From positions 1-64,000 of the forward strand of contig JAJPHO010000189.1 in assembly GCA_021325215.1 (NCBI GenBank): a DNA stretch of 64,000 nucleotides, given 5' to 3'. Below are positions 9,898 to 39,889 of this stretch, one piece after another. A program made the position numbers and the translations under genes. The number at the start of each line of letters is the position of its first letter. Positions within the stretch are counted from its first letter, which is position 1. The notes below the pieces were generated by a model that saw nothing but the letters and a program-made list of their open reading frames with translations, did not search any database and was not told the origin of the DNA. The stretch is from Alphaproteobacteria bacterium (lineage in GTDB: Bacteria; Pseudomonadota; Alphaproteobacteria; Rhodospirillales; Magnetospirillaceae).

Positions 9898-9956
9898 CGC
9901 CGCCCTCGGCTTTCCGGATGCGATGCAGGTCATGCCCAATTCCCAAACAGCCTCTT
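9869..9956 (+). repeat. 88-bp dispersed repeat, copy 1 (one end of a MITE-like element)
   Basis: This segment matches 21551-21638 at 81 of 88 positions. It includes the right terminal repeat of the element at 21479-21637 (here 9931-9955, followed by TA) and an internal palindrome CGATGCG-G-CGCATCG. The left half of the element is absent. The first 29 bases form the end of the hybrid kinase reading frame. Confidence 0.85.
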
Positions 9957-21478: not shown

Positions 21479-21637
21479 AGAGCCTGTTTGGGAATTGGGT
21501 ATGGCCTGCACAACGATATCAGAGGCTTGGGCCAGGCAGCGGGAGCGACGCGATGCGGCGCATCGTCGAGGCGGGATAACGCCGCCCTCGGCTTTCCGGT
21601 TGCGATGCAGGTCATATCCAATTCCCAAACAGGCTCT
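21479..21637. mobile_element. 159-bp MITE-like element with 25-bp terminal inverted repeats
   Basis: The ends 21479-21503 (starting AGAGCCTGTTTGGGAATTGG) and 21613-21637 are inverted repeats matching at 24 of 25 positions. TA dinucleotides flank both sides (21477-21478 and 21638-21639), as left by elements that duplicate TA on insertion (IS630/Tc1-mariner type or some IS5-group elements). There is no transposase. The right half occurs again at 9869-9956. The element makes up much of the 304-base gap between the TonB receptor and the sensor kinase and may affect their promoters. Confidence 0.8.
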
Positions 21638-21685: not shown

Positions 21686-23026
21686 ATGCCATTGCGCGTC
21701 CGCCTGATCTGTTCCGTCGCCGGAGCCCTGCTGGGCGGGCTGCTGCTTGCCTTCGCGCTGACGGTATGGCAGGCGCATGGCGCCGTGGTGCGCGAACTGG
21801 GCGCCGCCCTGGTGCTGGGCCGCCAGGAGATCCAGAACACGCTCGACACGGTTCCGCCCGGCGGCGATCCGAGCGATCCCGTGCGCCGCCAGATCATCGC
21901 CTTCAACGGCAACCGGCATGTCGCCGCCTCGCTGTTCGACGTCGAGGGGCTGCCCATGTCGATCTCGGTGCCGTCGGCGCCGGCCGCGCGGGTGCCGGCC
22001 TGGTTCGTCCGCGCCGTCAGCGGCAAGCCCGTCCAGTTGCGGATCGATCTGCCGCCCGGCGATTACCGGGCCCGCACGGTGCTGCTGGAGGGCGACCCGC
22101 GTAACGAGGCGCTTGAAGCCTGGAATTCGCTGCGCGACATGGTGCTGGTCATCCTTGCGCTGAGCGCGGCGGCTGGGCTGTTCGCCTGGTGGTCGATCGG
22201 CCGCGCCTTGCGTCCGCTGGAATCGCTGGCCGCCGCGCTGCAGAGCGTCGGCGAGGGCGAATATGCCGCGCGGCTGCGGGGCGAGGGGCCGCCGGAGACC
22301 CGGCAATTGGCCGAAGCCTTCAATCTGATGGCGCTCGAACTGGATCTGGCGCGGGAACGCAACCGCTTGCTGCATCGCCAATTGCTGACCGCGCAGGAGA
22401 CCGAACGGGCCGAGATCGCCCGCGACCTGCATGACGATATCGGCCCGCTGCTGTTCGCCATCACTGTCGATGCCGCCACCGCCGAGAACGGCGCGATCCG
22501 CCAGGACCGCACCGGAGCGCTGGAAGCGGCGCAGGGCATCCGGTCGACGGTGCAGCAGGCGCATGAGCGCATCCGCGCCATCATCAACCGGCTGCGTCCG
22601 GTCGGCCTGGCCGAATTCGGAGTCGAGCGCGCGGTCGAGAATCTGGTCGATTTCTGGCGGCGCCGCCACCCCGAGGTGCGCTTCACCCTGGAATTGCGGC
22701 GCCCCGCCGCCGCGTGCGGCGAACTGGTCGACGTCACCGCCTTCCGGGTCATCCAGGAGGCGGTCAGCAACGCTCTGCAGCACGGCAGGCCGTCGCACAT
22801 CCTGGTCACCATGAAACCGCGAGGCGAACCGGGCGCGGCGCTTCTGCTCGACATCGTCGATGACGGGCGCGGCGACGCCTCGGTAACGCCGGGCTTCGGC
22901 CTGACCGGCATGCGCGACCGCATCGAAGCGGTGGGCGGCAGCCTGACCGTGACCTCCGGCAAGGGGCAGGGCTTTCATGTCGCCGCCAGCCTGCCCTTGG
23001 CGCTGGATGGGGAGAGCGCGCGGTGA
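21686..23026 (+). CDS. NarX/DegS-type sensor histidine kinase
   Basis: 446-residue membrane sensor. TM1 is at about residues 7-29 and TM2 at about 152-172, with a periplasmic sensing domain of about 120 residues between, then a HAMP-like region (RALRPLESLAAALQSVGEGEYAARL). The HisKA_3 dimerisation domain carries H249 (RAEIARDLHDDIGPLL) and the HATPase has VSNALQHGRPS and DDGRGDASVTPGFGLTGMRDR. This type of kinase pairs with NarL-family regulators, and the next gene is one, overlapping by four bases. The position in the PQQ island suggests control of alcohol oxidation genes. Confidence 0.9.
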   Translation: MPLRVRLICSVAGALLGGLLLAFALTVWQAHGAVVRELGAALVLGRQEIQNTLDTVPPGGDPSDPVRRQIIAFNGNRHVAASLFDVEGLPMSISVPSAPAARVPAWFVRAVSGKPVQLRIDLPPGDYRARTVLLEGDPRNEALEAWNSLRDMVLVILALSAAAGLFAWWSIGRALRPLESLAAALQSVGEGEYAARLRGEGPPETRQLAEAFNLMALELDLARERNRLLHRQLLTAQETERAEIARDLHDDIGPLLFAITVDAATAENGAIRQDRTGALEAAQGIRSTVQQAHERIRAIINRLRPVGLAEFGVERAVENLVDFWRRRHPEVRFTLELRRPAAACGELVDVTAFRVIQEAVSNALQHGRPSHILVTMKPRGEPGAALLLDIVDDGRGDASVTPGFGLTGMRDRIEAVGGSLTVTSGKGQGFHVAASLPLALDGESAR

Positions 23027-23649
23027 GGTTCCTGCTGGTCGACGATCATCCTATCGTCCGCGCCGGCCTGCGCCGCCTGATGCAGGGGCTGGGTGAGATC
23101 GAGGTGGTCGAGGCCGATTGCGGGCGCGACGCGTTCCAGCTGTTCCTGACCGAGCGGCCTGATGTGGTGCTGATCGACGTCAACATGCCGGGCATGGGCG
23201 GTTTCCAGCTGCTGCGCCGCCTGCTGGCCGAGGATGGTCATGCCAAGGTGCTGATGTTCTCGATGCATGCGGAGCAGCTTTACGCCGCGCAGGCCCTTGC
23301 GGAAGGCGCGCTCGGCTATGTCAGCAAGACCGCCTCGCCCGAGGAAATTCTCGAAGCCATCCGCGGCGTCGCCGAGGGCACCGGCTATGTCGAGCGCCGC
23401 CTGGCCCAGGAGATGGCGCTGCGCCGCCTGCCGTCCGCCCGTTCCGAGGACGGATTGCCCGCGCTTAAAGGGCGCGAGTTGGAATGGCTGCGGCTGGTGG
23501 GCGAGGGGCGCGCCTTGACCGACATGGCCGCGGCGATGGGCGTCAGCTACAAGACCGCGGCCAATTCGCTCAGCCTGCTCAAAGCCAAACTCAGGGTTTC
23601 CTCGACCGCCGAACTGGTGCGCATCGCCCTGCGCTACGAGTCCTCATAG
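23023..23649 (+). CDS. NarL/LuxR-family response regulator
   Basis: 208 residues: receiver domain with phospho-acceptor D52 (VVLIDVNMPGMGGF) and a C-terminal LuxR-type helix-turn-helix (LKGRELEWLRLVGEGRALTDMAAAMGVSYKTAANSLSLLKAKL). The recognition helix has the usual 'SYKTA' pattern. A GTG start overlaps the kinase stop, so the two are one operon. Likely targets are PQQ-island promoters such as the two carrying the 28-bp element. Confidence 0.9.
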   Translation: MRFLLVDDHPIVRAGLRRLMQGLGEIEVVEADCGRDAFQLFLTERPDVVLIDVNMPGMGGFQLLRRLLAEDGHAKVLMFSMHAEQLYAAQALAEGALGYVSKTASPEEILEAIRGVAEGTGYVERRLAQEMALRRLPSARSEDGLPALKGRELEWLRLVGEGRALTDMAAAMGVSYKTAANSLSLLKAKLRVSSTAELVRIALRYESS

Positions 23650-23753
23650 TCAGGCACTACTTTAGTCTTATGGTTTCTGTAATGACGCCTAGTTCTTTGG
23701 TATGAGCTCGGTGCTGAATTCTGCTTTATGTAAGATATGTGTCAAGGCGGCAA

Positions 23754-23800
23754 CATCCGCCGAAAGTACCAAATACTTTATGTATTTAAGAAATTACCAT
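23754..23800 (+). promoter_or_regulatory. 28-bp shared activator-type element plus -10 region (copy 1)
   Basis: The element (23754-23781) contains AAAGTACCAAATACTTTAT, in which AAAGTA and TACTTT form an inverted repeat around a 5-bp spacer. A second copy at 32291-32318 matches at 26 of 28 bases. In both cases a -10-like hexamer begins 14 nt after the element's last base (TACCAT at 23795 here, TAGAAT at 32332 there), so the element overlaps the -35 position as expected for a class II activator site. The downstream gene is the outer-membrane protein at 23893. Confidence 0.75.
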
Positions 23801-23892
23801 TTCCCCTGAATTCAACCGTCGCGTCCGTTTGGGCGCCCTGTCGAAGGCAGGCTCCGGACTCCGGCGCGGCAATAAGATCAGGGAATACGGAA

Positions 23893-24738
23893 ATGGAACC
23901 AGAAAAGCGGCTTTATTGGAGGACGGGACTGCTGTCGGCGGTCTGTGCGGCGGCTTTATCCTGTGCCATGCCTCAGGCGGCCATGGCCGGCCCGGTTACC
24001 GAGGCGGGCGAACTGGTCGGTCTCGCCATGGGCGCTCCGCTGCCCGAGGGCGTCTATTTCGTCGATACCGGCAGCATGGTTTCGCTGGGCCACAACTACA
24101 ACACCACCCTGTTCGTCAATATTCCGGTGGTCGCCTATTCGACGCCCTGGAAGCTGTTCGGCGGCCGCGTCGAAGGCTATATCGCCGTGCCCGAACTTTA
24201 TGAAGGCGTCAAAGGCAGTGCCTCGACGGCAGGTCTCTATAATCCGGCGCTGCTGGTCGGCGAGGCCTGGGATCTCGGCAATGGCTGGGGGTTTTCGGAC
24301 TTCGTCGGCGGCTATGCGCCGATGAATTCTCCGATCACCCGCGGCCAGAACGAATGGGTGTTCAACAATCGCGCGGCGCTCAGCTATACCGCCAACGGCT
24401 ATGATCTGACCGCTCATATCACCTATGGCGTGACCGGCAGCAGCGAGGGCGCGGATCAGGGCGAATCGCCCAGCCCCGATTACATCAATTACGACATCAC
24501 CGCGACCAAGACCTTCGGCAAATGGGAACTCGGTCCGATCGCGTTCGGCACCAACGATCTCAGCCGTGGTTCGAGTTCGCATCTGTTCGAGATGGGCGGC
24601 CTGGTCGGCTATGCCTTCGGCCCCCTCAGCCTGCAGGTTTATGGCGCGCATTCGGTCAGCGCGTCGTCCGATTACGGTGACGGCGATTCCCGCGTTTTCC
24701 TGCGCATCGTCGTACCGCTGTGGAACCCCGGTTCCTGA
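23893..24738 (+). CDS. Outer-membrane transporter-like protein (SphA/MetA phenol-degradation family)
   Basis: 281-residue protein with a signal peptide (LLSAVCAAALSCAMPQAAMA) and a beta-rich body of the 'MetA pathway of phenol degradation' outer-membrane family. The family hallmark near the start is LPEGVYFVDTGSMVSLGHNYN. The repeated amphipathic strands end in RVFLRIVVPLWNPGS. Members are thought to be porins for hydrophobic compounds. The ATG at 23893 is preferred over 23737 because the latter would place the promoter element inside the frame and precede the leader by 52 residues. It carries the same upstream 28-bp element as the alcohol dehydrogenase gene, so co-regulation is likely. Confidence 0.78.
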   Translation: MEPEKRLYWRTGLLSAVCAAALSCAMPQAAMAGPVTEAGELVGLAMGAPLPEGVYFVDTGSMVSLGHNYNTTLFVNIPVVAYSTPWKLFGGRVEGYIAVPELYEGVKGSASTAGLYNPALLVGEAWDLGNGWGFSDFVGGYAPMNSPITRGQNEWVFNNRAALSYTANGYDLTAHITYGVTGSSEGADQGESPSPDYINYDITATKTFGKWELGPIAFGTNDLSRGSSSHLFEMGGLVGYAFGPLSLQVYGAHSVSASSDYGDGDSRVFLRIVVPLWNPGS

Positions 24739-24767
24739 ACCGGATCAGATTTGCTTGAGCGTGCCGG

Positions 24768-24804
24768 GCGTTCCCGCAATGCGGGAGCGCTCGCGCGTTT
24801 GTTT
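24768..24804 (+). terminator. Hairpin after the outer-membrane protein gene
   Basis: GCGTTCCCGC (24768-24777) pairs with GCGGGAGCGC (24781-24790) with one G-U pair around AAT, followed by a T-containing but not continuous tract (GTTTGTTT). It lies 29 nt after the stop codon. A probable but imperfect terminator. Confidence 0.55.
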
Positions 24805-24885
24805 ACATTAAATTTACTTTTTTTAGAGCGCCCGGGCCCCTACACTGTGGGCCACATACCCATAAAAAAATATTAGGGGTAGGTC

Positions 24886-25542
24886 ATGTCCGAAAGTGCG
24901 TGTCAGACCGTCCTCATTGCAGACGACCATCCGCTCTTCCGCGAGGCCCTGCAACGAGTTGGCGGCGAAGTCTTTTCAGACCATGTCTTCCGTGAAGTCG
25001 CCACCAGCGACGAAGCCCTCGCCATGGCGACCGACGATGACAGCGTCGATCTCATCTTCCTCGATCTCAACATGCCGGGAATGGACGGGTTCTCCGGCCT
25101 GGTCAGTTTGCGCAACGCGGTTCCCTCGGTGCCGATCATCGTGGTCTCGGCCACCGATGACAGCGCGACGATCCGCGAGGCGATCACCTGCGGCGCTTCC
25201 GGCTTCATGCCGAAATCCTTGTCGAAGGACGGCATGGTCGCCGCCGTGCGCTATGTGCTGGAGGGCGGGGTGTTCACCCCCGAGCCCGCTGACCAGAGCG
25301 TCAGCGGCGCCGACGCCAGGCTGACGGAGAGCATCTCGCAGCTGACCCATCAGCAGCGCATCGTGCTGCAGATGCTGGTTGCCGGCCAGTCGAACAAGAT
25401 GATCGCCTATGAGCTGAACATCGTGGAAAGCACGGTGAAAGCCCATGTTTCCGCGATTCTGCGCAAGCTCAACGTGCATTCGCGGACCCAGGCGGTGATC
25501 AAGGCCAGCAAGATCCTGTCGGCTTTGGGACGGCTAAGCTAG
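24886..25542 (+). CDS. NarL/LuxR-family response regulator (second)
   Basis: 218 residues with receiver D60 (IFLDLNMPGMDGFS) and a C-terminal LuxR-type HTH (LTHQQRIVLQMLVAGQSNKMIAYELNIVESTVKAHVSAILRKLNVHSR). This is close in layout to the regulators of PQQ-dependent ethanol oxidation in pseudomonads (AgmR/ErbR type), based on motif pattern and context only. It has no adjacent kinase gene in the same operon. Possible partners are the PAS kinase at 27791-30427 or the NarX-type kinase at 21686. Its stop overlaps the convergent ABC ATPase gene by four bases. AGGGGTAGGTC serves as ribosome-binding site. Confidence 0.9.
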   Translation: MSESACQTVLIADDHPLFREALQRVGGEVFSDHVFREVATSDEALAMATDDDSVDLIFLDLNMPGMDGFSGLVSLRNAVPSVPIIVVSATDDSATIREAITCGASGFMPKSLSKDGMVAAVRYVLEGGVFTPEPADQSVSGADARLTESISQLTHQQRIVLQMLVAGQSNKMIAYELNIVESTVKAHVSAILRKLNVHSRTQAVIKASKILSALGRLS

Positions 25543-26114
25543 CGGTCTAGTTCGACGATCCGGCCCGCCATCCGTTCCAGATCGGGCCGGTCATGGCTGA
25601 CCGTCAGCACCGCCATGCCGCGGGCCTTTACCGCTTCGAGTACGACGCCGCGCGCCTGGTCGGCGCTGCGCGGATCGAGCGAGACGAAAGCCTCGTCGAG
25701 CAGCAGCACGTCCGGCTCTATCGCCAAGGCTCGGGCCAGCGCGACGCGTCGCGCCATTCCCAGTGACAATCGGGCGGGATAGACGGCACCGGCGTCCGCC
25801 AGCCCCACCTTCTGCAACGCCGCCGAGGCTTTGGCGGTATCTCCTGCGACCGCAAGGGCGACGTTCTGCAGCGCCGTGCGCCAGGGCAGCAGGCGGGGCG
25901 ATTGGAATACCATGCCGAGGCGCGGGCTTCCGTCCCAGCGCACCGTGCCCTCGTAATCGGAATCCAGCCCGGCCAGGATCGACAGCAGGGTGGTCTTGCC
26001 GGCCCCGGACGGGCCGGCCAGGCCGAGCACCTCGCCGCGCGCCAGCGTGAAAGCGAGGTCGCGGAACAGATCCCGCCCGCCGAGCCGCTTCGCCAAGGCT
26101 TCGACCGTCAGCAT
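25539..26114 (-). CDS. ABC transporter ATP-binding protein (NitT/TauT-like)
   Basis: 191 residues with Walker A GPSGAGKTT, a signature motif written LSLGMARRVALARALA (an LSxGM variant of LSGGQ), Walker B VLLLDEAFVSLD, and a switch His in TVSHDRPD. It is shorter than most ATPases of this group, lacking the usual C-terminal extension. The ATG at 26114 is preferred over 26156 because the latter runs into the permease gene. It is the last gene in an operon of binding protein, permease and ATPase. The substrate is unknown, but the operon follows the island's PAS kinase and FIST genes. Confidence 0.88.
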   Translation of the reverse strand: MLTVEALAKRLGGRDLFRDLAFTLARGEVLGLAGPSGAGKTTLLSILAGLDSDYEGTVRWDGSPRLGMVFQSPRLLPWRTALQNVALAVAGDTAKASAALQKVGLADAGAVYPARLSLGMARRVALARALAIEPDVLLLDEAFVSLDPRSADQARGVVLEAVKARGMAVLTVSHDRPDLERMAGRIVELDR

Positions 26115-26115
26115 T

Positions 26116-26853
26116 TCAGCGTTTCCAATGGGCGGCACGGCGGTCCAGCCAGGCAAGCAGGGAGATTTCGATCAGCTGGATCACCAGCATGAAGGACAGC
26201 GCATAGGCCAGGATGCGGGCGATGTCGAGCAGCTGGAAATAGACATGCAGGCGGAACCCGATTCCGCTCGATCGGCCCAGCAGCTCGACCAGCAGCACGA
26301 TCTTCCACACCAGCGAGAGACCGGATCGGGTCGCGGCGAGAAAATAGGGCGCCAATTCCGGCAGCATCAGATCGAAGAACAGGCTTTTGCGCGAAAAACG
26401 GAACAGTCTCGCCATCTCCGCCAGGTCACGGTCGCGGCTGCGGGCGCCCTCGCGCAGGATCACCACCACATTGGGCAGCTTGCTGAGCGTCACCGCCAGG
26501 ATCGCCGCCGTTTCGCCCATGCCGAGCCAGATGTAGCAAAGGATCGCTACCGCCATCGCCGGCAGGGTCAGCAGCAGCTGCACCCAGGGATCGAACCAGC
26601 GCCCGAATTGCGGGGAAGACGCCATGCCGATGCCGATCGCGCTGCCGGCGATCATCGCCAGGCTGAAGCAGATGCCGACCCGGGCCAGAGTGGCGCCGAG
26701 ATCTGCCAGCAGCGGGCCGTGTGCCGCTTCCGACCAGAGCACAGCCAGCACGGCGGCGGGCGAGGGAAGCTCGGGGGTGGCCACGATCATCGCGGCGGCC
26801 TGCCAGACCAGCAGGATTACCAGGACCGGTGCTGCTGAAAAGGCATGCTTCAA
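26116..26853 (-). CDS. ABC transporter permease (NitT/TauT-like)
   Basis: 245-residue inner-membrane permease with about six transmembrane segments and the binding-protein-dependent permease motif region EMARLFRFSRKSLFFDLMLPELAPYFLAATRSGLSLVWKIVLLVELLG (EAA loop, coupling to the ATPase). It begins four bases inside the end of the binding-protein gene and ends one base before the ATPase ATG. The family imports nitrate, taurine, sulfonates, pyrimidine precursors and similar small ligands. Specificity is not visible here. Confidence 0.88.
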   Translation of the reverse strand: MKHAFSAAPVLVILLVWQAAAMIVATPELPSPAAVLAVLWSEAAHGPLLADLGATLARVGICFSLAMIAGSAIGIGMASSPQFGRWFDPWVQLLLTLPAMAVAILCYIWLGMGETAAILAVTLSKLPNVVVILREGARSRDRDLAEMARLFRFSRKSLFFDLMLPELAPYFLAATRSGLSLVWKIVLLVELLGRSSGIGFRLHVYFQLLDIARILAYALSFMLVIQLIEISLLAWLDRRAAHWKR

Positions 26854-27794
26854 GGGGGAGCATCCCTCCAGAAGGTGCCTGGCGCCACGGCGGGCGCCCC
26901 GCCGGTCAGGCCGGCACCGCCGACCTGGGCGAGCACGGTATAGAGCCGGGCCGCGGCGTCGGCACCGTCGGACGGATGCGGCAGCAGGCCGGCGGTGAAA
27001 CGCTGGCGCAGGGAGGGCAGGGCGGCGTCATCCGCGGCGCCGGTCAGCGGCTTCAGCCGGGCCCATTCCGCCTCGTCGCGCATCAGATCATCGGCCTTGT
27101 CGAGGGCAGCCAGGAAGCGGCGGGCGAGATCGGCATGGGCGGTGATCCAAGTTTCCGAGAAGGCATAGCCTATCATCGGCACCGGCGGCGAGAAGCCCAA
27201 TCCGTTCATGACGTCGGTCATCGACACCAGCCGGCGATAGCCTTGCGCCTCCAGCCGCGCGGCGAAAGGCCAGAAGGTCAGCACCGCATCGAGCCGCCCT
27301 TTGGCCAGTTCCTGCGACAGCAGCGGCGGAGCGCCGAACTGGACCTCGATCTTGCCGGTGGTGTCCGGATCGTAGGCGCGCAGCAGCAGCCAGGATTTGT
27401 CGAGCGGTCCGCCGGCCACGCCGACATGCTTGCCGGCCAGGTCCTTGAGACCCGCGAGGGGCGATCCGGCGGGAACCAGGATCTCGCCCAGGGCGGTGGA
27501 ATGGGGCACGAAGACGATATGCCGGCCGGCATGGCGCTGGCGCGACACCCATAGCCAGTCGGTGACGATCGCGTCGGCTCCGCCGGCTTGCAGCGCGATC
27601 TCGCCGGCGGCGGGATCGGCCAGCGCGACGCTCTCCAGCGTGCCGCCGAGATCGCGGTCCAGGCCGTGGCGGCGCAGCGTGTCGATTTCCCAGGCGGCGG
27701 TGCCGAAGCTGACCAGCCCGACCCGCAAAGTGTCGGCGCGGGCCGGAGAGCCCAGCCATAGAACGGCCAGGATTACCGCGAGTGCAGCCTTCAA
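26850..27794 (-). CDS. ABC transporter substrate-binding protein (NitT/TauT-like)
   Basis: 314-residue periplasmic protein with a signal peptide (MKAALAVILAVLWLGSPARA) and the SsuA/TauA-type fold: LRVGLVSFGTAAWEIDTLRRHGLDRDL at the start, ALADPAAGEIALQAGGADAIVTDWLWVSRQRHAG, and KDLAGKHVGVAGGPLDKSWLLL. These align with sulfonate/nitrate binding proteins. It overlaps the PAS kinase gene upstream and the permease downstream by four bases each, so transporter and kinase are in one transcription unit. The transporter may feed, or be sensed by, the kinase. Confidence 0.85.
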   Translation of the reverse strand: MKAALAVILAVLWLGSPARADTLRVGLVSFGTAAWEIDTLRRHGLDRDLGGTLESVALADPAAGEIALQAGGADAIVTDWLWVSRQRHAGRHIVFVPHSTALGEILVPAGSPLAGLKDLAGKHVGVAGGPLDKSWLLLRAYDPDTTGKIEVQFGAPPLLSQELAKGRLDAVLTFWPFAARLEAQGYRRLVSMTDVMNGLGFSPPVPMIGYAFSETWITAHADLARRFLAALDKADDLMRDEAEWARLKPLTGAADDAALPSLRQRFTAGLLPHPSDGADAAARLYTVLAQVGGAGLTGGAPAVAPGTFWRDAPP

Positions 27795-30427
27795 TTACGC
27801 GCCCCGGCAACGGTGAGATGAGCCAGCAGCGAGCGCAGCCGCGCCGGTTTCAGCGGCTTGTTGAGCAGGTGGAAGCCGGCTTCGCGCACGGCGTTATGAA
27901 CCTCATCGGAGCGGTCGGCGGTGATGATGATGCCGGGCACCCGATGGGGGAACAGCGGCTGCAGGGTCGACAGCGCGTCCAGCCCGGTGCGGTTCTCGTC
28001 GAGATGATAATCGGCCACCAGCACATCGGGCGGTCCATCGAGGGTGCCGAGCTGCGGAATCGCATTCTCCAGCGAGTCGGCGGCCACCACCCGGCATTGC
28101 CAGGTGCGCAGCAATTCGCGCATGGCGTCCAGCGCCGATTGGTCGTTCTCGATCACCAGCACCTGGGCGCCGATCACCTTGTGCAGCGGCGCGGGCAGGG
28201 CCAGGCTTTGTTCGTGCGGGCGGGCCTGGTGGTGGACGCCATAGGGCAGGGTGACGCTGAACATCGAGCCCTTGCCCGGCTCGGACCTCAGGCCGATCGG
28301 ATGGTCGAGGCGGCGGGCGATGCGGTCGACGATGGCGAGGCCCAGCCCGATGCCGCGGTCCTTGCCGTGACTGTCACGCGCCAGGCGGCGGAATTCCTCG
28401 AACACTTCGGCCTGCTTGGCTTCCGGGATGCCTATTCCGCTGTCCCACACCTGCACTTCGACCCCCTCCGCGTGCCGCCGGCAGCCCAACAGCACGCGGC
28501 CGGTCGGAGTGTAGCGCATCGCGTTGCTGAGGAAATTACGCAAGATGCGGCCGGTCATCACCGGATCGGTACGGACCACCGCCCGGCACGGCACCCAATG
28601 CAAAGCGAGGCCGCGTCCCTTGGCCTGGGGCTGATATTCGGCGGCCAGCGATTTCAGCAGGTCGTTGATCTCGAAATCCGAGATCTCCGGCGTTTGCGCT
28701 CCGGAATCCAGTTTCGAGATGTCGAGCAGCGCGCTCAGCAGCTCGTCCACCGAGTTCAGCGCCACATTGACGTTGGCGACCAGGTTGCGCTTATGCTCGG
28801 TCATACGGGTTTCGGACAAGGCGGCGGCGAAGACGCGGGCGGCGTTCAACGGCTGCAGCAGATCGTGGCTGGCCGCGGCGATGAACTTGGTCTTGCTCAT
28901 ATTGGCGCGCTCGGCTTCGGCCTTGGTGATGCGCAGGGCGGCTTCGACCTGGCGGCGCTCCTCGATTTCCTGGGTCAGCTCGACGGTGCGCGCGGCGACG
29001 CGGACTTCCAGCGATTCCTTGGCTTCCTGCAGCTCCTGCGCCGCCTTCTTGCGCTCGGTGATGTCCTGCAGCAAAGCGAAGAAGCCCAGCACTTCGCCGT
29101 CATTGCCGAAATGCGGCACATAGGTCGCCACCGCATGTTCGATACGGCCTTTCAGCAGCGGCAGGCCGATCTCGAACGTGACGCGCTGGCCCGACAGCAC
29201 GGCGTCCACCGCGTCGCGCCGCGCATTATAGAGTTCCGGCCCCAGCACGGTGCGCATATGGCGGCCGTTGATCTCGCTGCGCGGACGGCCGAACCATTCT
29301 TCATAGGGTTTGTTGGTGAAGCGATAGCGCAGCGTGCTGTCGACATAGGCGATCAGCGCCGGCACCGCGTCGGTGATCAGACGGATGCGCTGTTCGGAAT
29401 CCCGCAGCGCCCATTCCGACGCCTTGCGGCCGGTGATGTCGGTATAAGTGGTGATCATCCCGCCGCCCGGCATCGGATTGAGCTGGATGTCGAGAATGCG
29501 GCCGTTATCGACCATCTGCTCCAGGCTGAAGCCGCGGAAATCGGGGACGCCCGCCATGCCGGCATGCAGGAACTGGCACGAGATGGCGGGCTGGTAAGCG
29601 AGGTCGCGCAAGGGCTTGCCGACCGCCATCTCATCGGGGGCGACATTCAGCAATTCGAGGAAACGCTCGTTCCACGCCACCAGCCGCTGGTCGCTGTCGA
29701 CCACCGAGATGCCCTGCGACAATTTGTCGAAGATGGCCTGCAGCAATTTGTTTTTCTGGGCCAATTCGTAGTCGCGCTGGCGCTTTTCCGACAGCTTGAT
29801 CTCGGTGATGTCGGTATAGATCGCCACCGTGCCGCCATCGTCGGTGCGGCGTTCGCTGATCTGCAGCCAGCGCTGATTGGCCAGCTTGACCACGAACATC
29901 TTTTCCTTGAGCTGGCGGTGATGCTGCAGGCGCCGCGTCATCGCCGCCTCGGCGCCGCCGTCGGACTCGTCGAACAGCCCCAGTTCCTGCGCATGCTGCA
30001 CCAGGGTGATGAAGGGCATGCCCGGCTTCACCAGATCGCCCAGGCCCGGCCACAGCTCGCGGTATTTCTGGTTGCACATGACAAGGCGATCTTCGGCGTC
30101 GCACAGGATGAAGCCTTCGCTGACCGATTCGATGGCGGTGGCCAGGCGGATGCGCGCCGTTTCGGCTTCCTCGGTGGCCTGGCTGAGATCGCGGTTGGTC
30201 TTGGCGAGTTCGCGCAGGGCGTTTTCCAGCTCGATCGTGCGGTCGCGCACGCGGCCTTCCAGCACGATGGCAGTCTGGAACAGCGAGAAGGCGTTGCCCT
30301 GGAAATCCATGCTGCGCTCGACCCGGTCCATCAGGACCTTGTTGATCTTGCGCAGCTTGGCGTTCTCGCGTTCGAGTTCGGCGATGCGCTGCTGCTCGTG
30401 ATGAAGGTCGAGAGGCGCATCCGGCAT
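27791..30427 (-). CDS. PAS-domain hybrid histidine kinase/response regulator (NahK/ErcS'-like)
   Basis: 878 residues, no transmembrane segments. An N-terminal coiled coil (about 10-100) is followed by three PAS domains, at about 100-210 (ATAIESVSEGFILCDAEDRLVMCN), 230-350 (KLSQGISVVDSDQRLVAWNE) and 360-470 (AVPALIAYVDSTLRYRFTNKPYEEWFG). Next are HisKA with H521 (AAASHDLLQPLNAARVF), a HATPase (WDSGIGIP, GKDRGIGLGLAIV) and a C-terminal receiver with D806 (DVLVADYHLDENRTG). It lies between the FIST-domain gene upstream and the ABC transporter downstream. In pseudomonads, FIST proteins and similar kinases also occur beside PQQ ethanol-oxidation genes. Its signal is unknown. Confidence 0.9.
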   Translation of the reverse strand: MPDAPLDLHHEQQRIAELERENAKLRKINKVLMDRVERSMDFQGNAFSLFQTAIVLEGRVRDRTIELENALRELAKTNRDLSQATEEAETARIRLATAIESVSEGFILCDAEDRLVMCNQKYRELWPGLGDLVKPGMPFITLVQHAQELGLFDESDGGAEAAMTRRLQHHRQLKEKMFVVKLANQRWLQISERRTDDGGTVAIYTDITEIKLSEKRQRDYELAQKNKLLQAIFDKLSQGISVVDSDQRLVAWNERFLELLNVAPDEMAVGKPLRDLAYQPAISCQFLHAGMAGVPDFRGFSLEQMVDNGRILDIQLNPMPGGGMITTYTDITGRKASEWALRDSEQRIRLITDAVPALIAYVDSTLRYRFTNKPYEEWFGRPRSEINGRHMRTVLGPELYNARRDAVDAVLSGQRVTFEIGLPLLKGRIEHAVATYVPHFGNDGEVLGFFALLQDITERKKAAQELQEAKESLEVRVAARTVELTQEIEERRQVEAALRITKAEAERANMSKTKFIAAASHDLLQPLNAARVFAAALSETRMTEHKRNLVANVNVALNSVDELLSALLDISKLDSGAQTPEISDFEINDLLKSLAAEYQPQAKGRGLALHWVPCRAVVRTDPVMTGRILRNFLSNAMRYTPTGRVLLGCRRHAEGVEVQVWDSGIGIPEAKQAEVFEEFRRLARDSHGKDRGIGLGLAIVDRIARRLDHPIGLRSEPGKGSMFSVTLPYGVHHQARPHEQSLALPAPLHKVIGAQVLVIENDQSALDAMRELLRTWQCRVVAADSLENAIPQLGTLDGPPDVLVADYHLDENRTGLDALSTLQPLFPHRVPGIIITADRSDEVHNAVREAGFHLLNKPLKPARLRSLLAHLTVAGARN

Positions 30428-30432
30428 CGCGG

Positions 30433-31602
30433 CTAGCCTCTCCGCCCTATGGCGACGCCGGTGAAGGTCTGGTTCACATGCATGGCATTGAATTGTTCGC
30501 CATAGGTGTTGAACCCGACCACGTGATTGTCGCGGAACAGGCCGGCCATGGCCTGTTCCAATCCCTTCTGCTTGATCTCCAGATTGCGCAGGATGCAGTC
30601 GCAGCCGATCACCACTTCGGGCTGGCCGATGAGGGCGCGCAGCTCGTCGAAGCGCCGCGTCATGTCCTCGACGATGTCGGTGCCGGTCGCGGCGGTCAGT
30701 ACGATGCCTTCGTCGATCGACGAGAAGAAGGTCAGGCTGTCATCGTCATTGGCCTTCTGCAGCGCCCGCACATAGGGAACGTTGCCGATCCGCACCACCA
30801 GCGGATGGGTGGCGAACACGGTCGGGGTCAGCTGCTCGCGGGTCAGGCCGATCAGCCGGGCATATTCGCGCGCCGCCGGTTCGGCATTGATCTCGGTGAC
30901 GACGCGCCGGGCCGGATCGGCGGCGGTGATCACCATCTTCTCCTGGCTCAGCAGGAAATGCTCGGTCTTGAAGACCTGGAAGGGATGGGTGGTGGCGACC
31001 AGCACCAGCACCGCGCCATGCTGATGGAATTCGCCGTCGCACAGGATGCGCGTGGTGCGGAAATCCAGTTCGTCGCCGGCCGAGCCGCCGAACAGCGGGA
31101 TCGGTCCCAGCTCGTGATGCAGCGCGCTGACCACCGATTCCTCGGTGGCGTCGAGGCCGTCGATGAACAGCAGCGCGAAGATCTGCTCATGCGGCAGGCC
31201 GGGCGCCTTCTCCTCCAATTCGCTGAGGCAGCTGCGCACCAGCTGCCGGCCGTCGGCCACCGAAAAATTCCGGATATCCAGGATATGGCGGGCGGCGGCA
31301 TGGAAATCGGGGGCGGCGAAGCTGACCCCGGTGACGCTGCCATGCTGATACCCGAACGGGGTGATCTCGCCCGCCGTGGTACAGCCGATCACCGGCGTGG
31401 CGCCGAAGCGTCTCTTGAGATCGGCGGCAAAGCCGTCGAGCGCCAGCTTGGGCGAGCAGAACAGCACCACCAGCGAGGCTTCGTCCTGCGACAGATCGGC
31501 GTGCAGTTCCTCGGCGGCCTTGGACGCGCCGGTGGCGGTGGTGACGGCGCGGCGCACCCGTTGATTCGGCGTTGGGGTGGCAAGGGCGTTCATCTCCCGC
31601 AC
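30433..31602 (-). CDS. FIST N/C-domain sensory protein
   Basis: 389 residues with the FIST N domain (DLSQDEASLVVLFCSPKLALDGFAADLKRRFG, then VIGCTTAGEITPFGYQHGSVTGVSF, the conserved CTTAGEI core) and the FIST C domain (QEKMVITAADPARRVVTEINAEPAAREYARLIG; late motifs VVIGCDCILRN and HVVGFNTYGEQFNAMHVNQTFTGVAIG). FIST domains are proposed ligand-binding sensor modules, often encoded next to kinases. Here it is 5 nt upstream of the PAS kinase start. It begins with GTG two bases after the stop of the Cys-rich gene. An ATG at 31593 is the alternative. It probably presents a cytoplasmic ligand to the kinase. Confidence 0.9.
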   Translation of the reverse strand: MREMNALATPTPNQRVRRAVTTATGASKAAEELHADLSQDEASLVVLFCSPKLALDGFAADLKRRFGATPVIGCTTAGEITPFGYQHGSVTGVSFAAPDFHAAARHILDIRNFSVADGRQLVRSCLSELEEKAPGLPHEQIFALLFIDGLDATEESVVSALHHELGPIPLFGGSAGDELDFRTTRILCDGEFHQHGAVLVLVATTHPFQVFKTEHFLLSQEKMVITAADPARRVVTEINAEPAAREYARLIGLTREQLTPTVFATHPLVVRIGNVPYVRALQKANDDDSLTFFSSIDEGIVLTAATGTDIVEDMTRRFDELRALIGQPEVVIGCDCILRNLEIKQKGLEQAMAGLFRDNHVVGFNTYGEQFNAMHVNQTFTGVAIGRRG

Positions 31603-31603
31603 C

Positions 31604-31963
31604 CTATTCGCAGCGCAGATTGGCCTCGGCCTGGGCGGTACGCAATTTCGCCAGATTGTCCTTGGCGATCGGCGTGTCGCGCACCAGTCCGCCTCGCTGG
31701 CCCAGGGCGCCGCCCTGCTGCAGGCTCAGCACCGTCGAGGCTTTCTCATACTCGTCATAGGGCATGTAATTGGCGATGGTGTCGATCTCGCACGAGCATT
31801 TGTCGAGAAAGAGCCGGCTGAAGCCGTTCGACCCCAGGCAGCCGATCACGTAATCGGCCCGCGCCGCCGTTGGATAGTCGTATTTCGGATGTGCCGGCAC
31901 CGCAGCGATTGCGGGCAGGGCGAGCGCCAGGCTGACCAGGGCCAGCAAGGAACGGACAGTCAT
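31604..31963 (-). CDS. Small secreted Cys-containing protein of the quinoprotein island
   Basis: 119 residues with a clear signal peptide (MTVRSLLALVSLALALPAIAA). The mature part contains YVIGCLGSNGFSRLFLDKCSCEIDTIANYMPYDEYEKASTVLSLQ, with three closely placed cysteines, and a final Cys in NLRCE. Similar small proteins occur near quinoprotein dehydrogenase genes, but no function is known to me. The ATG at 31963 has GGGAGGACTGG upstream and is preferred to 32065. It is first in the operon Cys-protein, FIST, PAS kinase, ABC transporter, and divergent from the 68-residue ORF at 32064. Confidence 0.8.
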   Translation of the reverse strand: MTVRSLLALVSLALALPAIAAVPAHPKYDYPTAARADYVIGCLGSNGFSRLFLDKCSCEIDTIANYMPYDEYEKASTVLSLQQGGALGQRGGLVRDTPIAKDNLAKLRTAQAEANLRCE

Positions 31964-32063
31964 TCCAGTCCTCCCGATATGCTTATTTTTGCAACTAACT
32001 TGCCACAAACAGGTTGCCTGGGCGCATAGTATTTTGGTCGATATCCGGCCCGAGGTGATGACC

Positions 32064-32270
32064 ATGATCCAGCTCGTGCTCGTCTATTGCATGATCCAGA
32101 ACGCATCGGTCTGCGTGGAAGACCGGCCGACCTATCTCGAACCCATGTCGATGAGCTCGTGCATGAGTTCGGCTCAGTTCGTCGCCGTGGATTACGTCCG
32201 CGACCACCCTCGCTGGCAGCTTTCGAAATGGAGCTGCGAGGTCGACGTTCCGCGCAAGATTCCGGCCTGA
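32064..32270 (+). CDS. Small Cys-rich conserved-looking protein
   Basis: 68 residues starting MIQLVLVYCMIQNASVCVEDRP, with cysteines at 9, 17, 33 and 57 (SSCMSSAQ; KWSCEVD). No signal peptide is obvious. The spacing and aromatic content suggest a compact disulfide or metal-binding fold. An SD-like GAGG (32052-32055) is 8 nt ahead of this ATG. An alternative in-frame ATG is at 32058. It lies alone upstream of the alcohol dehydrogenase gene, within the island and divergent from another Cys-containing small protein. Function unknown. Confidence 0.65.
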   Translation: MIQLVLVYCMIQNASVCVEDRPTYLEPMSMSSCMSSAQFVAVDYVRDHPRWQLSKWSCEVDVPRKIPA

Positions 32271-32290
32271 ACCCGGTGGCTGGAATGTGA

Positions 32291-32337
32291 CATTCGCCAA
32301 AAGTACCAAATACTTTATCGGGCGAAGTTACTAGAAT
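32291..32337 (+). promoter_or_regulatory. 28-bp shared activator-type element plus -10 region (copy 2)
   Basis: This copy (32291-32318) of the element at 23754-23781 contains the identical 19 bases AAAGTACCAAATACTTTAT. TAGAAT (32332-32337) is a good -10 hexamer whose distance from the element is the same as in copy 1. It is the probable promoter of the PQQ alcohol dehydrogenase gene starting at 32496, giving a leader of roughly 150 nt. Confidence 0.78.
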
Positions 32338-32495: not shown

Positions 32496-34288
32496 ATGTT
32501 AACGAGACAAACGACGACGAAGCGCACACTTCTTGTTGTTCTCGGTGCGCTGGCGTTGGCGGGAGGTTCGGCGAATGCGAACGAAGAGCTGCAAAAGCTC
32601 ACGCAGGACCCCAACCAGTGGGTGATGCCGACAGGCGACTATTCCAATCACCGCCACAGCACGCTCTCTCAGATCACTGCGACCAACGTCAAGGATTTAC
32701 GTCCGGTCTGGACTTTCTCGACCGGCGTGCTGCGCGGCCATGAAGGCGCCCCGCTGGTAGTCGGCGACACCATGTATGTCCATACGCCGTTCCCCAATAC
32801 GGTGTTCGCCCTCGACCTCAACAACAACGGCAAGATCATCTGGAAGTACCAGCCCACCCAGGACCCCAACGTGATCCCGGTGATGTGCTGCGATACCGTC
32901 AATCGCGGCGTGGCGTACGGTGACGGCAAGATCATCCTCGACCAGGCCGATGCGACCGTTGTCGCGTTGGACGCCAAGACCGGCCAGGTGGTGTGGACCG
33001 TCAAGAATGGCGACCCCGGCAAGGGCGAGACCATGACCTCGGCCCCGATGGTTGTTAAGGACAAAGTGCTGGTGGGCATTTCGGGCGGCGAATTCGGCGT
33101 CCAGGGACGTATCACCGCTTATAGTCTCAAAGACGGCAAACTGCTGTGGAAAGCCTATTCCGAAGGGCCGGACGACCAGATCCTGTTCGACCCGGAAAAG
33201 ACCACGGTGCTCGGCAAGCCGGTCGGCAAGAATTCCTCGCTGGCCACCTGGCAGGGCGATCAGTGGAAGATCGGCGGCGGCGCCACCTGGGGCTGGTATT
33301 CGTACGATCCCAAGCTGAACCTGGTCTATTACGGCACCGGCAATCCCAGCACCTGGAACCCGCATCAGCGGCCGGCGACAATAAATGGTCGATGACCATC
33401 ATGGCCCGCAACCCTGATACCGGCGTGGCCAAGTGGGTCTATCAGATGACGCCCTACGACGAGTGGGACTATGACGGCGTCAACGAGATGATCCTGGCCG
33501 ACATCGATGTCGGCGGCAAACCGACCAAGGCCCTGGTCCATTTCGACCGCAACGGCTTCGCCTATACCCTCGACCGCGAGACCGGCGCCCTGCTGGTGGC
33601 CGAGAAGTATGATCCGGCGGTGAACTGGGCCAACAAGGTCGACGTCAAGACCGGCCTGCCGGACCGCGTCGCCGCGATGAGCACCGAGAAAGAGGACCAT
33701 AACGTCAAGGGAATCTGTCCCGCGGCGCTGGGGTCCAAGGACGAGCAGCCGGCCTCCTTCGATCCGAAGACCGGTCTGTTCTACGTGCCGACCAACCATG
33801 TCTGCATGGATTACGACCCCTTCGCGGTCTCCTACACGGCGGGCCAGCCCTATGTCGGCTCGACCCTGTCGATGTATCCCGGCCCCGGCGGAAATCTGGG
33901 CAACTTCATCGCCTATGACGCCGGCAAGGGCAAGATCGTATGGACCGACAAGGAACCCTTCTCCGTCTGGTCGGGCGCTCTGACCACCGACGGCGGCGTC
34001 GCCTTCTACGGCACGCTGGAAGGGTATCTCAAGGCGGTCGACGTCAAGACGGGCAAGGAGCTGTACAGCTTCAAGACTCCGTCCGGGATCATCGGCAACG
34101 TGATGACCTACAGCCATGGCGGCAAGCAGTATGTCGCCGTGCTGTCGGGTGTCGGCGGCTGGGCCGGTATCGGCATGGCGGCCGGCCTCACCAAGAGCAC
34201 CGACGGCCTGGGCGCCGTGGGTGCGTACGAGCAGCTGTCCAACTATACGCAGTTGGGCGGCGTCATGACTGTGTTCGCTCTTCCCTAA
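32496..34288 (+). pseudogene. Lanthanide-type PQQ alcohol/methanol dehydrogenase, frameshifted
   Basis: Periplasmic eight-bladed propeller dehydrogenase of the methanol/ethanol family, oxidising primary alcohols with PQQ. The signal peptide starts at 32496 (AAGGGAGGAA upstream). The vicinal Cys pair C131-C132 ([10 protein letters not shown]) forms the disulfide ring over PQQ. The active-site motif [10 protein letters not shown] has its catalytic Asp at 33467-33469 and a second Asp two residues later at 33473-33475, the signature of lanthanide-dependent XoxF/PedH-type enzymes (calcium enzymes lack it). The frame breaks at about 33374: the N-part ends at 33395 and the C-part continues one base shifted. 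Adding one G to the GG at 33374-33375 restores ...[14 protein letters not shown]. Both parts are otherwise intact, so this is either a recent mutation or a sequencing error. Confidence 0.93.
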
Positions 34289-34364: not shown

Positions 34365-34796
34365 ATGGTTCTGAGATTTTCCGCCCGATCGGGGGTTGCC
34401 GCGATCGGCTTTTTCGTCCTCTGTACTTCGATCGCCGTTCCCGCCCGGGCCGACAATCCGCCCTACAACATCAAGGACGGCAAGGTCGACATCCATGTCT
34501 ATAACGGCTATCGCCGCTACGGCGATTCCTGCATGCGCTGCCACGGCCCGGATGGCGCCGGCAGCTCCTATGCGCCGGATCTGACCAATTCGCTGAAGCA
34601 TCTGTCCGAGGACCAGGTCAAGGAGACCATCATCAATGGCCGTCAGAATCTCGCCAACGGCCAGGACAAGGTCATGCCGTCCTTCGGCACCGTGGCCGAT
34701 GTGGTCAATTATCTCGACGACATCTACGCCTACCTCAAGGCCCGCTCGGACGGTAAACTGCCGCGCGGACGCCCCGAGCGCTATGATGATAATTAA
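34365..34796 (+). CDS. pedF: Cytochrome c-550 PedF-like
   Basis: 143-residue periplasmic c-type cytochrome: signal peptide (VAAIGFFVLCTSIAVPARA), haem-binding C56-MR-C59-H60, and a likely distal Met in KVMPSFGTVADVVNYL. It is the usual electron acceptor gene next to PQQ ethanol dehydrogenases and matches the PedF pattern (NGYRRYGDSCMRCHGPDGAGSSYAPDL). Electrons from PQQH2 would pass through it toward the terminal oxidase. The next gene starts inside its last codons (14-nt overlap), so the two are coupled. Confidence 0.92.
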   Translation: MVLRFSARSGVAAIGFFVLCTSIAVPARADNPPYNIKDGKVDIHVYNGYRRYGDSCMRCHGPDGAGSSYAPDLTNSLKHLSEDQVKETIINGRQNLANGQDKVMPSFGTVADVVNYLDDIYAYLKARSDGKLPRGRPERYDDN

Positions 34797-35586
34797 AGGC
34801 CTGGTGGCTGCGTCGATGCTTCTGGCATCCGCCGCGTCCTGGGCGCAGCAACGCAGCGAACTGCGCGTCTGCGCCGATCCCTCCAACCTGCCTTATTCCG
34901 CCCAGGACATGAGCGGCTTCGAGAACAAGATCGCCGCCTTGTTCGCCGACGATATGCATCTGAAAGTGTCCTACACCTGGTTTCCCCAGGTCACCGGCTT
35001 CGTCCGCAACACGATCGCGGCGCAGAAATGCGATCTGGTGATGGGGACGGTGTCGGGCGAGGACATGATGGCCAACACCACGGCCTATTATCACACCGCC
35101 TACATGATCGTGACCCGCACGGCGGACAACATCACCGCCACCTCGATCGGCGATCCGGTCTTCAAGAACAAGAAGATCGGCCTGATCGCCCGCACGCCGC
35201 CGGTCGACGCGGTGGTGAAGTTCGACCTTACCAGGCAGGTTGTTCCCTATGATCTGATGACCGACACCCGAATCGTCCAAGCGCCGCGCGAGATGCTCAA
35301 GGACCTGGCCAAAGGCGAGATCGACGTCGCCTTGGTGTGGGGGCCGCAGGCGGGCTATTTCATCAAGCACGACAATCTGCCGCTGACCGCCGCTTTCCTG
35401 AAGCAGGAAGAGGGAAGCGCCCGCCTCGACTACCACATCGCCATGGGCGTCCGCGCCAACGACACCGACTGGCGCCGCCAGATCAGCGACGAGATCGTCA
35501 GGAACAAGGCCAAGATCCAGGACATATTGCTGGATTACGGGGTGCCGCTGCTGGACGAGCAGGGGCAGCCGATCAAGGGGAAATAG
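34783..35586 (+). CDS. Quinoprotein dehydrogenase-associated binding protein (XoxJ-like)
   Basis: 267 residues with a signal peptide (IKGLVAASMLLASAASWAQ) and a periplasmic-binding type 2 fold: LRVCADPSNLPYSAQDMSGFENKIAALFADDM, typical of the amino-acid-binding-like proteins encoded beside quinoprotein dehydrogenases. XoxJ, the homologue in methylotrophs, is needed for dehydrogenase activity and is thought to help activate the apoenzyme rather than transport a solute. The start overlaps pedF by 14 nt. ATG codons at 34783 and 34786 are both possible. No transporter is adjacent. Confidence 0.9.
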   Translation: MMIIKGLVAASMLLASAASWAQQRSELRVCADPSNLPYSAQDMSGFENKIAALFADDMHLKVSYTWFPQVTGFVRNTIAAQKCDLVMGTVSGEDMMANTTAYYHTAYMIVTRTADNITATSIGDPVFKNKKIGLIARTPPVDAVVKFDLTRQVVPYDLMTDTRIVQAPREMLKDLAKGEIDVALVWGPQAGYFIKHDNLPLTAAFLKQEEGSARLDYHIAMGVRANDTDWRRQISDEIVRNKAKIQDILLDYGVPLLDEQGQPIKGK

Positions 35587-37563: not shown

Positions 37564-38133
37564 CTATTCCTGCAACGCTTTTGCGAAATCTCCCAGACGC
37601 GCTTCCAGATCGACCGGAATCTGGCAGGCATAGCGCAGCGTCTTGTCGAGGCTGTCATAGTCGCGCTGCAGGAAGCCGCGGCGCTGCAGGATTTCGTCAT
37701 GCTTGGCGCCCGCAGACTCCGGCGTCGCGCTCAGCTCGTCATTCACTTTCTGGATGGTGCCGTTCAGATTGGCCTGGCGCTGGGCCATGCCACGGATCTT
37801 GGTGATCACCTCGGCGCGTTGGCGGTCGGTTTCCTCGACCAGGCCGGTGAACAACATCGGCAGCGCCTTTTTTCCGTGCGGGGCCTTGCGGAAGGCGGCG
37901 AGCTGGCGCACATCGTCGTCGCGGTCGGTGTCGCGCGGAGCGAGCTTGCCGACCAGGGCAGCGATCTTCTTGTCCTTGTGCCAGTCGGGCAGGTTCTCGA
38001 GCTGGGACGTGTCTTCCCAATAGGTGGCGGGCGCCAGACTGTCGGAGAAATGCTGCTGGCAGGGCAGGGCCGCTTCATCGGCCAGGGCAGGGGCGCCGAG
38101 GGTCAGGGCCAGAATCACGGATGCGAGTTTCAT
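37564..38133 (-). CDS. Exported protein of unknown function in the PQQ-linked ABC operon
   Basis: 189 residues with a signal peptide (MKLASVILALTLGAPALA). The mature part is predominantly charged and helical, with two Cys (LPCQQHF, RYACQIP) near its ends that could form a disulfide, and coiled-coil-like stretches (RQANLNGTIQKVNDELSATPESAGAKHDEILQRRGFLQRDYDSLDKTLR). I do not recognise the family. It overlaps the end of the permease gene by four bases (ATGA) and is the last member of the 37564-42409 operon, so it may serve the transporter from the periplasm. Confidence 0.75.
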   Translation of the reverse strand: MKLASVILALTLGAPALADEAALPCQQHFSDSLAPATYWEDTSQLENLPDWHKDKKIAALVGKLAPRDTDRDDDVRQLAAFRKAPHGKKALPMLFTGLVEETDRQRAEVITKIRGMAQRQANLNGTIQKVNDELSATPESAGAKHDEILQRRGFLQRDYDSLDKTLRYACQIPVDLEARLGDFAKALQE

Positions 38134-38936
38134 TCACCGCCTCCCTTGCGCGCCAGCATGCCGCGGCCCGGGTCGTAGCCCAGGATCGCCAGCGCCAGGA
38201 ACAGGATCGTGCTGCCGGCCACGACGGCCAGCGATACGCAATCGAGCTTGAGATAGAGCGCGAAGCGGATCAGCTCGACCGCATGGGTAAAGGGATTGGC
38301 CTGGCAGACATACCAGAGCGCCAATCCCCCTTCCTTAACCCGCCATAGCGGATAAAGCGCCGAAGAGGCGAAGAACATCGGAAAGATCACGAAGTTCATC
38401 ACCCCGGCGAAATTCTCCAGCTGGCGGATCAGCGACGACAAAGCCAGCCCCAGCGCGCCCAGCATCAATCCGGACAGCAGCAGCGCCGGCAGCACCGCCA
38501 GATAGCCCCAATAGGGCGGCTCGACATCCCAGAACCAGGCGACGGCCAGGAAGGCATAGGCCAGCGGAACCGAGATCAGCGCGCCGGCCAGCAGCTTGCT
38601 GGTCAGCAGGAACCAGCGCGGCAGCGGGCTGATCAGCAGGGTCCGCATATTGCCCATCTCGCGGTCATAGACCATCGACAAGGAGCTCTGCATGCCGTTG
38701 AACAGCTGGATCATCGCCAGCAATCCCGGCGCGATATAGACCTGATAGGGGATGTAGGTCTCGTAGGGCGGAATGATCGAGACGCCCAGCACGAAGCGGA
38801 AGCCCGAGGCGAACAGGATCAGCCAGACCAGCGGCCGCACCAGGGCCGAGACGAAGCGGCTGCGTTGGTTGAGAAAGCGCAGGAATTCGCGCGCCAGGAT
38901 GCCGAGACAGCAGCGAAAATAGGCGGCGGGGTTCAT
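38130..38936 (-). CDS. ABC-2 type permease, PQQ-alcohol-dehydrogenase-linked (PedC-like)
   Basis: 268-residue inner-membrane permease with about six TM segments. It follows the ABC-2 exporter pattern: FLNQRSRFVSALVRPLVWLILFASGFRFVL, MQSSLSMVYDREMGNMRTLLISPLPRWFLLTSKLLAGALISVPLAYAF, and a late IFPMFFASSALYPL. It is the type found with PQQ alcohol dehydrogenase systems (PedC). The transported molecule is not known. An inserted 143-bp foldback sequence separates it from its ATPase gene. Confidence 0.88.
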   Translation of the reverse strand: MNPAAYFRCCLGILAREFLRFLNQRSRFVSALVRPLVWLILFASGFRFVLGVSIIPPYETYIPYQVYIAPGLLAMIQLFNGMQSSLSMVYDREMGNMRTLLISPLPRWFLLTSKLLAGALISVPLAYAFLAVAWFWDVEPPYWGYLAVLPALLLSGLMLGALGLALSSLIRQLENFAGVMNFVIFPMFFASSALYPLWRVKEGGLALWYVCQANPFTHAVELIRFALYLKLDCVSLAVVAGSTILFLALAILGYDPGRGMLARKGGGE

Positions 38937-38971
38937 GGGGGGGGCCTCTTCGCGGTTGAGAGGCTTGTTGT

Positions 38972-39114
38972 TTCACCACGAAGACACGAAGACACGAAGG
39001 AGGAGAAGCGCCGCAGGCAATCTCTGCCTTGTCCAGCGAATGCCTGCGGATGAGGAATGATTGCCTGCGGCGCTTTTCTTGTTTTCCTTCGTGCCTTCGT
39101 GTCTTCGTGGTGAA
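38972..39114. repeat. Foldback (long inverted repeat) inside the ABC transporter operon
   Basis: The left arm 38972-39021 and right arm 39060-39114 are imperfect inverted repeats of about 50 bases, built on CACGAAGACACGAAG-type repeats and GCGCCGCAGGCAAT, separated by about 38 bases that contain another TGCCTGCGG. It could fold into a long stem. CACGAAGACACGAAG-type arrays are known as dispersed intergenic repeats in several phyla. It interrupts the otherwise tightly packed ATPase-permease pair. Confidence 0.8.
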
Positions 39115-39156
39115 TCGTCTGGAGGCCGAGGACGAACGAGGCGTGGATGTAATCGC

Positions 39157-39888: not shown

Positions 39889-39889
39889 C

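Follow-up and report, generated by a model that had tools for sequence, protein, structure and literature searches.

The xoxF cluster and an outer-membrane channel gene

The window, a stretch of 64,000 nucleotides analyzed as a whole, carries a xoxF gene for a PQQ methanol dehydrogenase and a gene for an outer-membrane channel (Table 1). Near these two genes lie pqqB, pqqC, pqqE, genes for SoxH-like, SoxYZ-like and CXXCW proteins, PedA1A2BC-type genes and a gene for a NahK/ErcS-family kinase. The dehydrogenase, called an alcohol dehydrogenase in an earlier sequence-only reading of this DNA, does match the PQQ methanol/ethanol dehydrogenases and is, more exactly, a methanol dehydrogenase of the XoxF type. 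Its nearest solved structures are 6oc5 and 6dam, DEWDYDG is retained, and the C-terminal half aligns with XoxF1 of Methylorubrum extorquens (6oc5) at an E value of 3.3e-143 with the lanthanide-type DxD kept. The fold, the DxD and the accompanying xoxG and xoxJ place the protein in the XoxF group, and lanthanide dependence is predicted. Downstream of the dehydrogenase gene come genes for a cytochrome c and a MoxJ-2 binding protein, which makes the unit xoxFGJ. A single-base frameshift near 33375 splits xoxF into two frames (32496-33395 and 33383-34288) and may be a real mutation or an assembly error; in relatives, xoxF is one open frame of 594 to 611 codons. The window gene differs from that of M. 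extorquens XoxF1 in being frameshifted in the assembly, and also in its promoter control.

Table 1. Coordinates (nt of the window) of the genes and promoter features discussed
Feature	Position	Strand	Remarks
Further distal ACTU-like site CTTTAGTC	23660..23667	+	103 bp upstream of proximal AAAGTA; like sites upstream of relatives' RR2
Distal site CTTTGGTA	23695..23702	+	68 bp upstream of proximal AAAGTA
RR1, NarL/UvrY-type response regulator	23023..23649	+	Paired with kinase 21686-23026; disfavored candidate binder
Channel-gene operator block GCAACATCCGCCGAAAGTACCAAATACTTT (putative)	23750..23779	+	Perfect dyad 23763-23779; 26/28 with xoxF copy
-10-like hexamer TACCAT, channel promoter	23795..23800	+	Spacing same as xoxF copy
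COG4313/PF13557 outer-membrane channel gene	23893..24738	+	PF13557 E value 3.7e-16
RR2, NarL-type response regulator, AgmR/ErdR-like	24886..25542	+	Response_reg and GerE; favored candidate binder
NahK/ErcS-family hybrid histidine kinase	27791..30427	-	NF041832 481.7 bits, above cut-off; possible RR2 partner
xoxF operator block GTGACATTCGCCAAAAGTACCAAATACTTT (putative)	32287..32316	+	Perfect dyad 32300-32316
-10-like hexamer TAGAAT, xoxF promoter	32332..32337	+	Spacing same as channel copy
xoxF, lanthanide-type PQQ methanol dehydrogenase	32496..34288	+	TIGR03075 on both halves; frame broken near 33375
xoxG-like cytochrome c	34365..34796	+	TIGR03874 (methanol metabolism-related c-type cytochrome) 134 bits, below cut-off 161.75
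xoxJ-like periplasmic protein	34687..35586	+	TIGR03871 (MoxJ-2 binding protein) 292.9 bits, above cut-off; true start may be further downstream
PedA1A2BC-type transporter genes	38130..42027	-	TIGR03863, TIGR03866, TIGR03861 above cut-off; ATPase 39157-39888

The channel protein scores 60.3 bits against PF13557 (gathering score, 22), and its structure model (pLDDT 78.8) is a 12-strand barrel with 12 long strands. A Foldseek search with this model returned 4rl8 as the top match (TM ~0.62-0.65, 14% identity). That structure is Pput2725, likewise a 12-strand barrel of the COG4313 family, which is encoded near monoaromatic degradation genes and has been proposed to pass hydrophobic molecules (PMC4493636). 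In contrast, the window channel accompanies PQQ dehydrogenases: a PQQ alcohol dehydrogenase is present in 11 of 55 genomes of the family, these include all seven in which a close channel orthologue occurs, and in several genomes the channel gene adjoins PedBC-type genes or a gene reading like tonB. This co-occurrence supports a functional tie between the channel and the quinoprotein dehydrogenase system, as had been proposed; the suggested role in alcohol or cofactor uptake was a guess, the nearest solved fold being one proposed for hydrophobic molecules.

The locus as a whole resembles the Pseudomonas ped cluster, which also combines a PQQ dehydrogenase, PedA1A2BC, SoxYZ-like, SoxH-like and CXXCW proteins, a NahK/ErcS-type kinase and a NarL-type regulator (PMC12997753). 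It departs from that cluster in that the window dehydrogenase is a XoxF with xoxG and xoxJ, and in that the ped cluster porin PP_2662 differs from the window's COG4313 outer-membrane protein (PMC12997753). The PP_2662 gene is co-induced with the ped cluster by ethanol and methanol, the cluster is controlled by AgmR/ErbR-type regulators (AgmR being PedR1/ErbR), and how lanthanides cross the outer membrane in the ped system is described as an unresolved question in the same review (PMC12997753). Beside the window cluster lies a gene for a TonB-dependent receptor (19063-21381; no equivalog above cut-off), which might be the receptor for a lanthanide carrier. A repeat of ~66 bp containing GATAACGCCGCCCTCGGCTTTCCGG, found at 9885-9950 and 21567-21632 and in nine exact genome copies, looks like an intergenic REP-type sequence, and an inverted repeat, TTCACCACGAAGACACGAA, with 19-bp arms (38972-38990 and 39096-39114), lies between two ABC operons.

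A 30-bp element upstream of both genes

The two 28-bp copies, at 23754-23781 (CATCCGCCGAAAGTACCAAATACTTTAT) and 32291-32318 (CATTCGCCAAAAGTACCAAATACTTTAT), are identical at 26 of 28 bases. Both contain the 19-base run AAAGTACCAAATACTTTAT, which includes the perfect dyad AAAGTA-CCAAA-TACTTT, and their likeness ends abruptly on either flank. While the repeat that the sequence-only reading described is real, the conserved block is longer than the dyad, ~30 bp (GCAACATTCGCCRAAAGTACNNAATACTTT), reaching 13 bp past it. A genome scan for exact AAAGTA-N5-TACTTT, which that reading had proposed, finds two sites in 4,878,613 bases, both of them the window copies. Besides the copy pair, the window holds one other direct diagonal with at least 26 of 28 identities, a REP-like repeat, and no such direct pair arises in five windows shuffled under a Markov-2 null. 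When the regions upstream of the channel gene and of xoxF are compared, their best common ungapped segment reaches a score of 23, whereas none of 60 shuffles exceeded 11. A chance origin of the copy pair is excluded. An Rfam search of the window for a riboswitch gave no match. A wider regulon was also sought: the dyad with up to two mismatches occurs at 13 places in the genome versus 72 for a reversed control. The 24-base pattern, searched with three mismatches allowed, retrieves only the two known sites, so we claim no further member.

At both sites, a -10-like hexamer starts 14 nt past the last base of the copy, and a TAnnnT hexamer begins 15 to 16 nt past the dyad at all six sites considered (two in the window and four in relatives). 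The element-bearing promoters have no recognizable -35 consensus; a -35 box at 17-nt spacing would fall on AATACT, and the promoter should therefore need an activator. Relative to a start placed by means of the hexamer, the whole block spans about -57 to -28 with its center at ~-42.5, and the dyad alone is centered at ~-36. An activator site centered ~42.5 bp before the start occupies the classical class II position. The class II layout put forward earlier fits and is conserved, with the site over -35, a fixed distance to the -10 and no -35 consensus; its start is read from the hexamer and activation is a prediction. Overall, the sequence supports a genuine operator-promoter element common to two unrelated genes. 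Further upstream, CTTTNGTA or its variant CTTTNGTC lies 67 to 68 bp before the proximal AAAGTA in five of seven channel promoters, including that of the window; the window's xoxF promoter has no CTTTNGTA-type site at this distance.

Conservation of the element in relatives

Six further family genomes have a channel orthologue, with 52-75% identity. In four of these relatives (G014, G022, G026, and G034), the ~30-bp block, as GCAACATTNGCCRAAAGTACNNAATAC, stands upstream of the channel orthologue, with dissimilar DNA around it among the four, and a weaker version precedes the channel gene of MAG REEB62. When 12 genomes were scanned with ACATTNGCCNAAAGTACNNAATAC at up to three mismatches, the four relatives' sites, the two window sites and one match with three mismatches were recovered. 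A survey of 317 genomes of the order yielded the same six promoters, and no other site, when one mismatch was allowed; matches with three mismatches are no commoner than in the reversed control. A weight matrix was trained on the channel promoters of five relatives, with both window sites left out. It gives the window's channel site 39.6 bits and the xoxF site 36.7, whereas the third-best place in the 64 kb scores 8.2 and shuffled windows peak at 14.9. A channel gene (52%) without the element occurs in G003, and on inspection the PF13557 channels of Methylobacterium, Xanthobacter and Rhodoblastus relatives have no such element upstream. In G020, the proximal channel site is different (AAAGTATCAG). 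The same AAAGTATCAG is common to the channel and xoxF upstream regions of that genome; as 8 of 60 shuffles do likewise, no sharing is claimed there. In four relatives (L078, L079, L081, and L083), a tonB-like gene, in some followed by a receptor-like gene, points away from the channel gene on the opposite strand, and given this divergent arrangement the element might influence tonB as well.

The element is absent from the xoxF promoters of relatives. Those of G022, G014, and G020 (L018, L019, and L020) instead carry GTACCAAAGTATCAG, exact and once per genome, which in L020 sits inside a long palindrome, GTACCAAAG-N6-CTTTGGTAC. In the window's genome, GTACCAAAGTATCAG has no match with up to two mismatches. 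Within G014, G022, and G020, shuffles reveal nothing common beyond chance between the channel and xoxF upstream regions. The element is common to two genes here and is conserved at the relatives' channel genes, but the xoxF site is not conserved, and as the relatives' xoxF promoters use GTACCAAAGTATCAG, the putative joint control is known from this genome only; a search of the family found no second genome of the same genus. It is conceivable, though unlikely in our view, that the xoxF promoter of this lineage lost GTACCAAAGTATCAG and gained a channel-type element, which would have brought XoxF under a ped-like regulator together with the COG4313 channel as an entry route for alcohol, PQQ or a lanthanide carrier.

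Candidate regulators and competing explanations

The sequence-only reading had treated the regulators encoded at 23023 (RR1) and 24886 (RR2) as equal candidates. That equality does not survive: across genomes, the element is accompanied by RR2 and not by RR1. RR2 is a NarL-type response regulator, with PF00072 at 82.8 bits and PF00196 at 74.7 bits, both above the Pfam cut-offs. Its best NCBIfam match is ErdR (NF041830) at 179.3 bits, well under the cut-off of 390, and its likeness to AgmR/PedR1/ErbR is one of gene context alone. Orthologues with 67-75% identity occur in G014, G020, G022, G026, and G034, and in G003 and in genomes that have no close channel orthologue the relatives of RR2 reach only 50-53%. 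The recognition helix of RR2 is the same in those five orthologues and different in four aligned sequences of the 50-53% group. The co-occurrence of RR2 and the element within one family is partly shared descent. In G034 and G026, a gene for a NahK/ErcS-type kinase adjoins RR2 and its ABC genes. The upstream region of RR2 itself contains no good match to the relatives' matrix. In three relatives (L078, L079, and L082), RR2 lies beside an ethanol-dehydrogenase-like PQQ gene whose upstream region carries another conserved box, CCTTGTACTAATTGTCAATAGGC, identical in all three and a further candidate operator of the same regulatory system. With this other box beside it, RR2 may recognize more than one arrangement, or more than one regulator exists.

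Operators of two-component regulators in PQQ alcohol dehydrogenase clusters are a known kind of thing. Our literature search found no operator sequence for AgmR and none for xoxF control, and the 30-bp element and the channel/xoxF pairing look new within the literature searched. A comparable case is CrbR (ErdR), a LuxR-type regulator that at acs of Pseudomonas fluorescens needs an inverted repeat, the ACTU motif, just upstream of the promoter (PMC5715377). ACTU and the window element have in common an inverted repeat, an adjacent sigma-70-like promoter and, as predicted for the window element, a LuxR/NarL-type response regulator. In the published ACTU examples (PMC5715377), the sequence is GAC/TAC-N4-GTC and the site runs from -52 to -36, stopping upstream of -35. 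The ACTU core ACCAAAG resembles the distal sites and the box at the xoxF genes of relatives. Unlike the ACTU examples, with which it was compared by eye, the window element is GTA-N5-TAC, covers -35 and is extended on its 5' side by conserved bases. An ACTU-type operator (TACTACCAAAGTCTAAT-like, with the GAC/TAC-N4-GTC core) was thus rejected for the element, which reads AAAGTACCAAATACTTT; the distal sites and the relatives' xoxF box are nearer to ACTU than the proximal element is.

The reading we prefer, at a probability of roughly 50%, is that an activator binds as a dimer to the ~30-bp block GCAACATTNGCCRAAAGTAC-NN-AATACTTT and drives the channel gene and xoxFGJ jointly. The 28-bp repeat would form the core of an activator-type operator-promoter module, in which the bound activator would recruit RNA polymerase to a promoter that has a -10 but lacks a -35 box, with predicted starts near 23807 and 32344. 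The binder would most likely be RR2, probably phosphorylated by the NahK/ErcS-type hybrid kinase. Two transcription units would be driven in this genome, the COG4313 channel and xoxFGJ, and with one module driving both, the channel and the lanthanide methanol dehydrogenase would be made together. The signal that we infer is alcohol and/or lanthanide; the transcription starts, activation over repression, the binder, the kinase and co-expression are likewise inferred. As relatives keep the site upstream of the channel gene, the channel and xoxF are probably co-induced. That one activator site is common to the two genes is a well-supported idea.

It is rather less likely, but possible, that a regulator encoded elsewhere binds the block or that an alternative sigma factor reads the module, with GCAACATT or AAAGTAC as its -35 element. 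The dyad alone does not explain the 13-bp extension of the block, and the link to RR2 is a correlation only; however, sigma sites do not usually form a perfect dyad, TATTAT, TACAAT, TAAGAT and TAGAAT at the -10 position resemble ordinary sigma-70 boxes, and two promoters in the genome are few for a sigma regulon. A repressor operator over the -35 position, keeping both genes off until an inducer is present, would suit a perfect dyad that covers the -35 region with an inferred center at ~-36. We regard it as improbable, as the conserved block is centered near -42.5, the missing -35 consensus implies that the bare promoter should be weak, and the neighboring response regulators are of types known to activate such clusters (PMC12997753). 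Activation by RR1, the partner of kinase 21686, at the same operator and the same two genes is quite improbable: although this NarL/UvrY-type protein has its own kinase and its gene lies directly upstream of the channel gene, its matches in element-bearing relatives reach only 31-45% (31% in G014 and 35% in G026), and the element is therefore conserved without it. REP-like repeats exist in this genome, yet that the copy pair is a chance likeness or a dispersed repeat without regulatory meaning is exceedingly improbable, given two copies genome-wide, conservation at the relatives' orthologous promoters and no similar pair in shuffles.

The conserved 30-bp element, with two copies in the genome, is a precise and mutable target. 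Through it, a quinoprotein dehydrogenase is connected with a single named outer-membrane channel and a single candidate response regulator.
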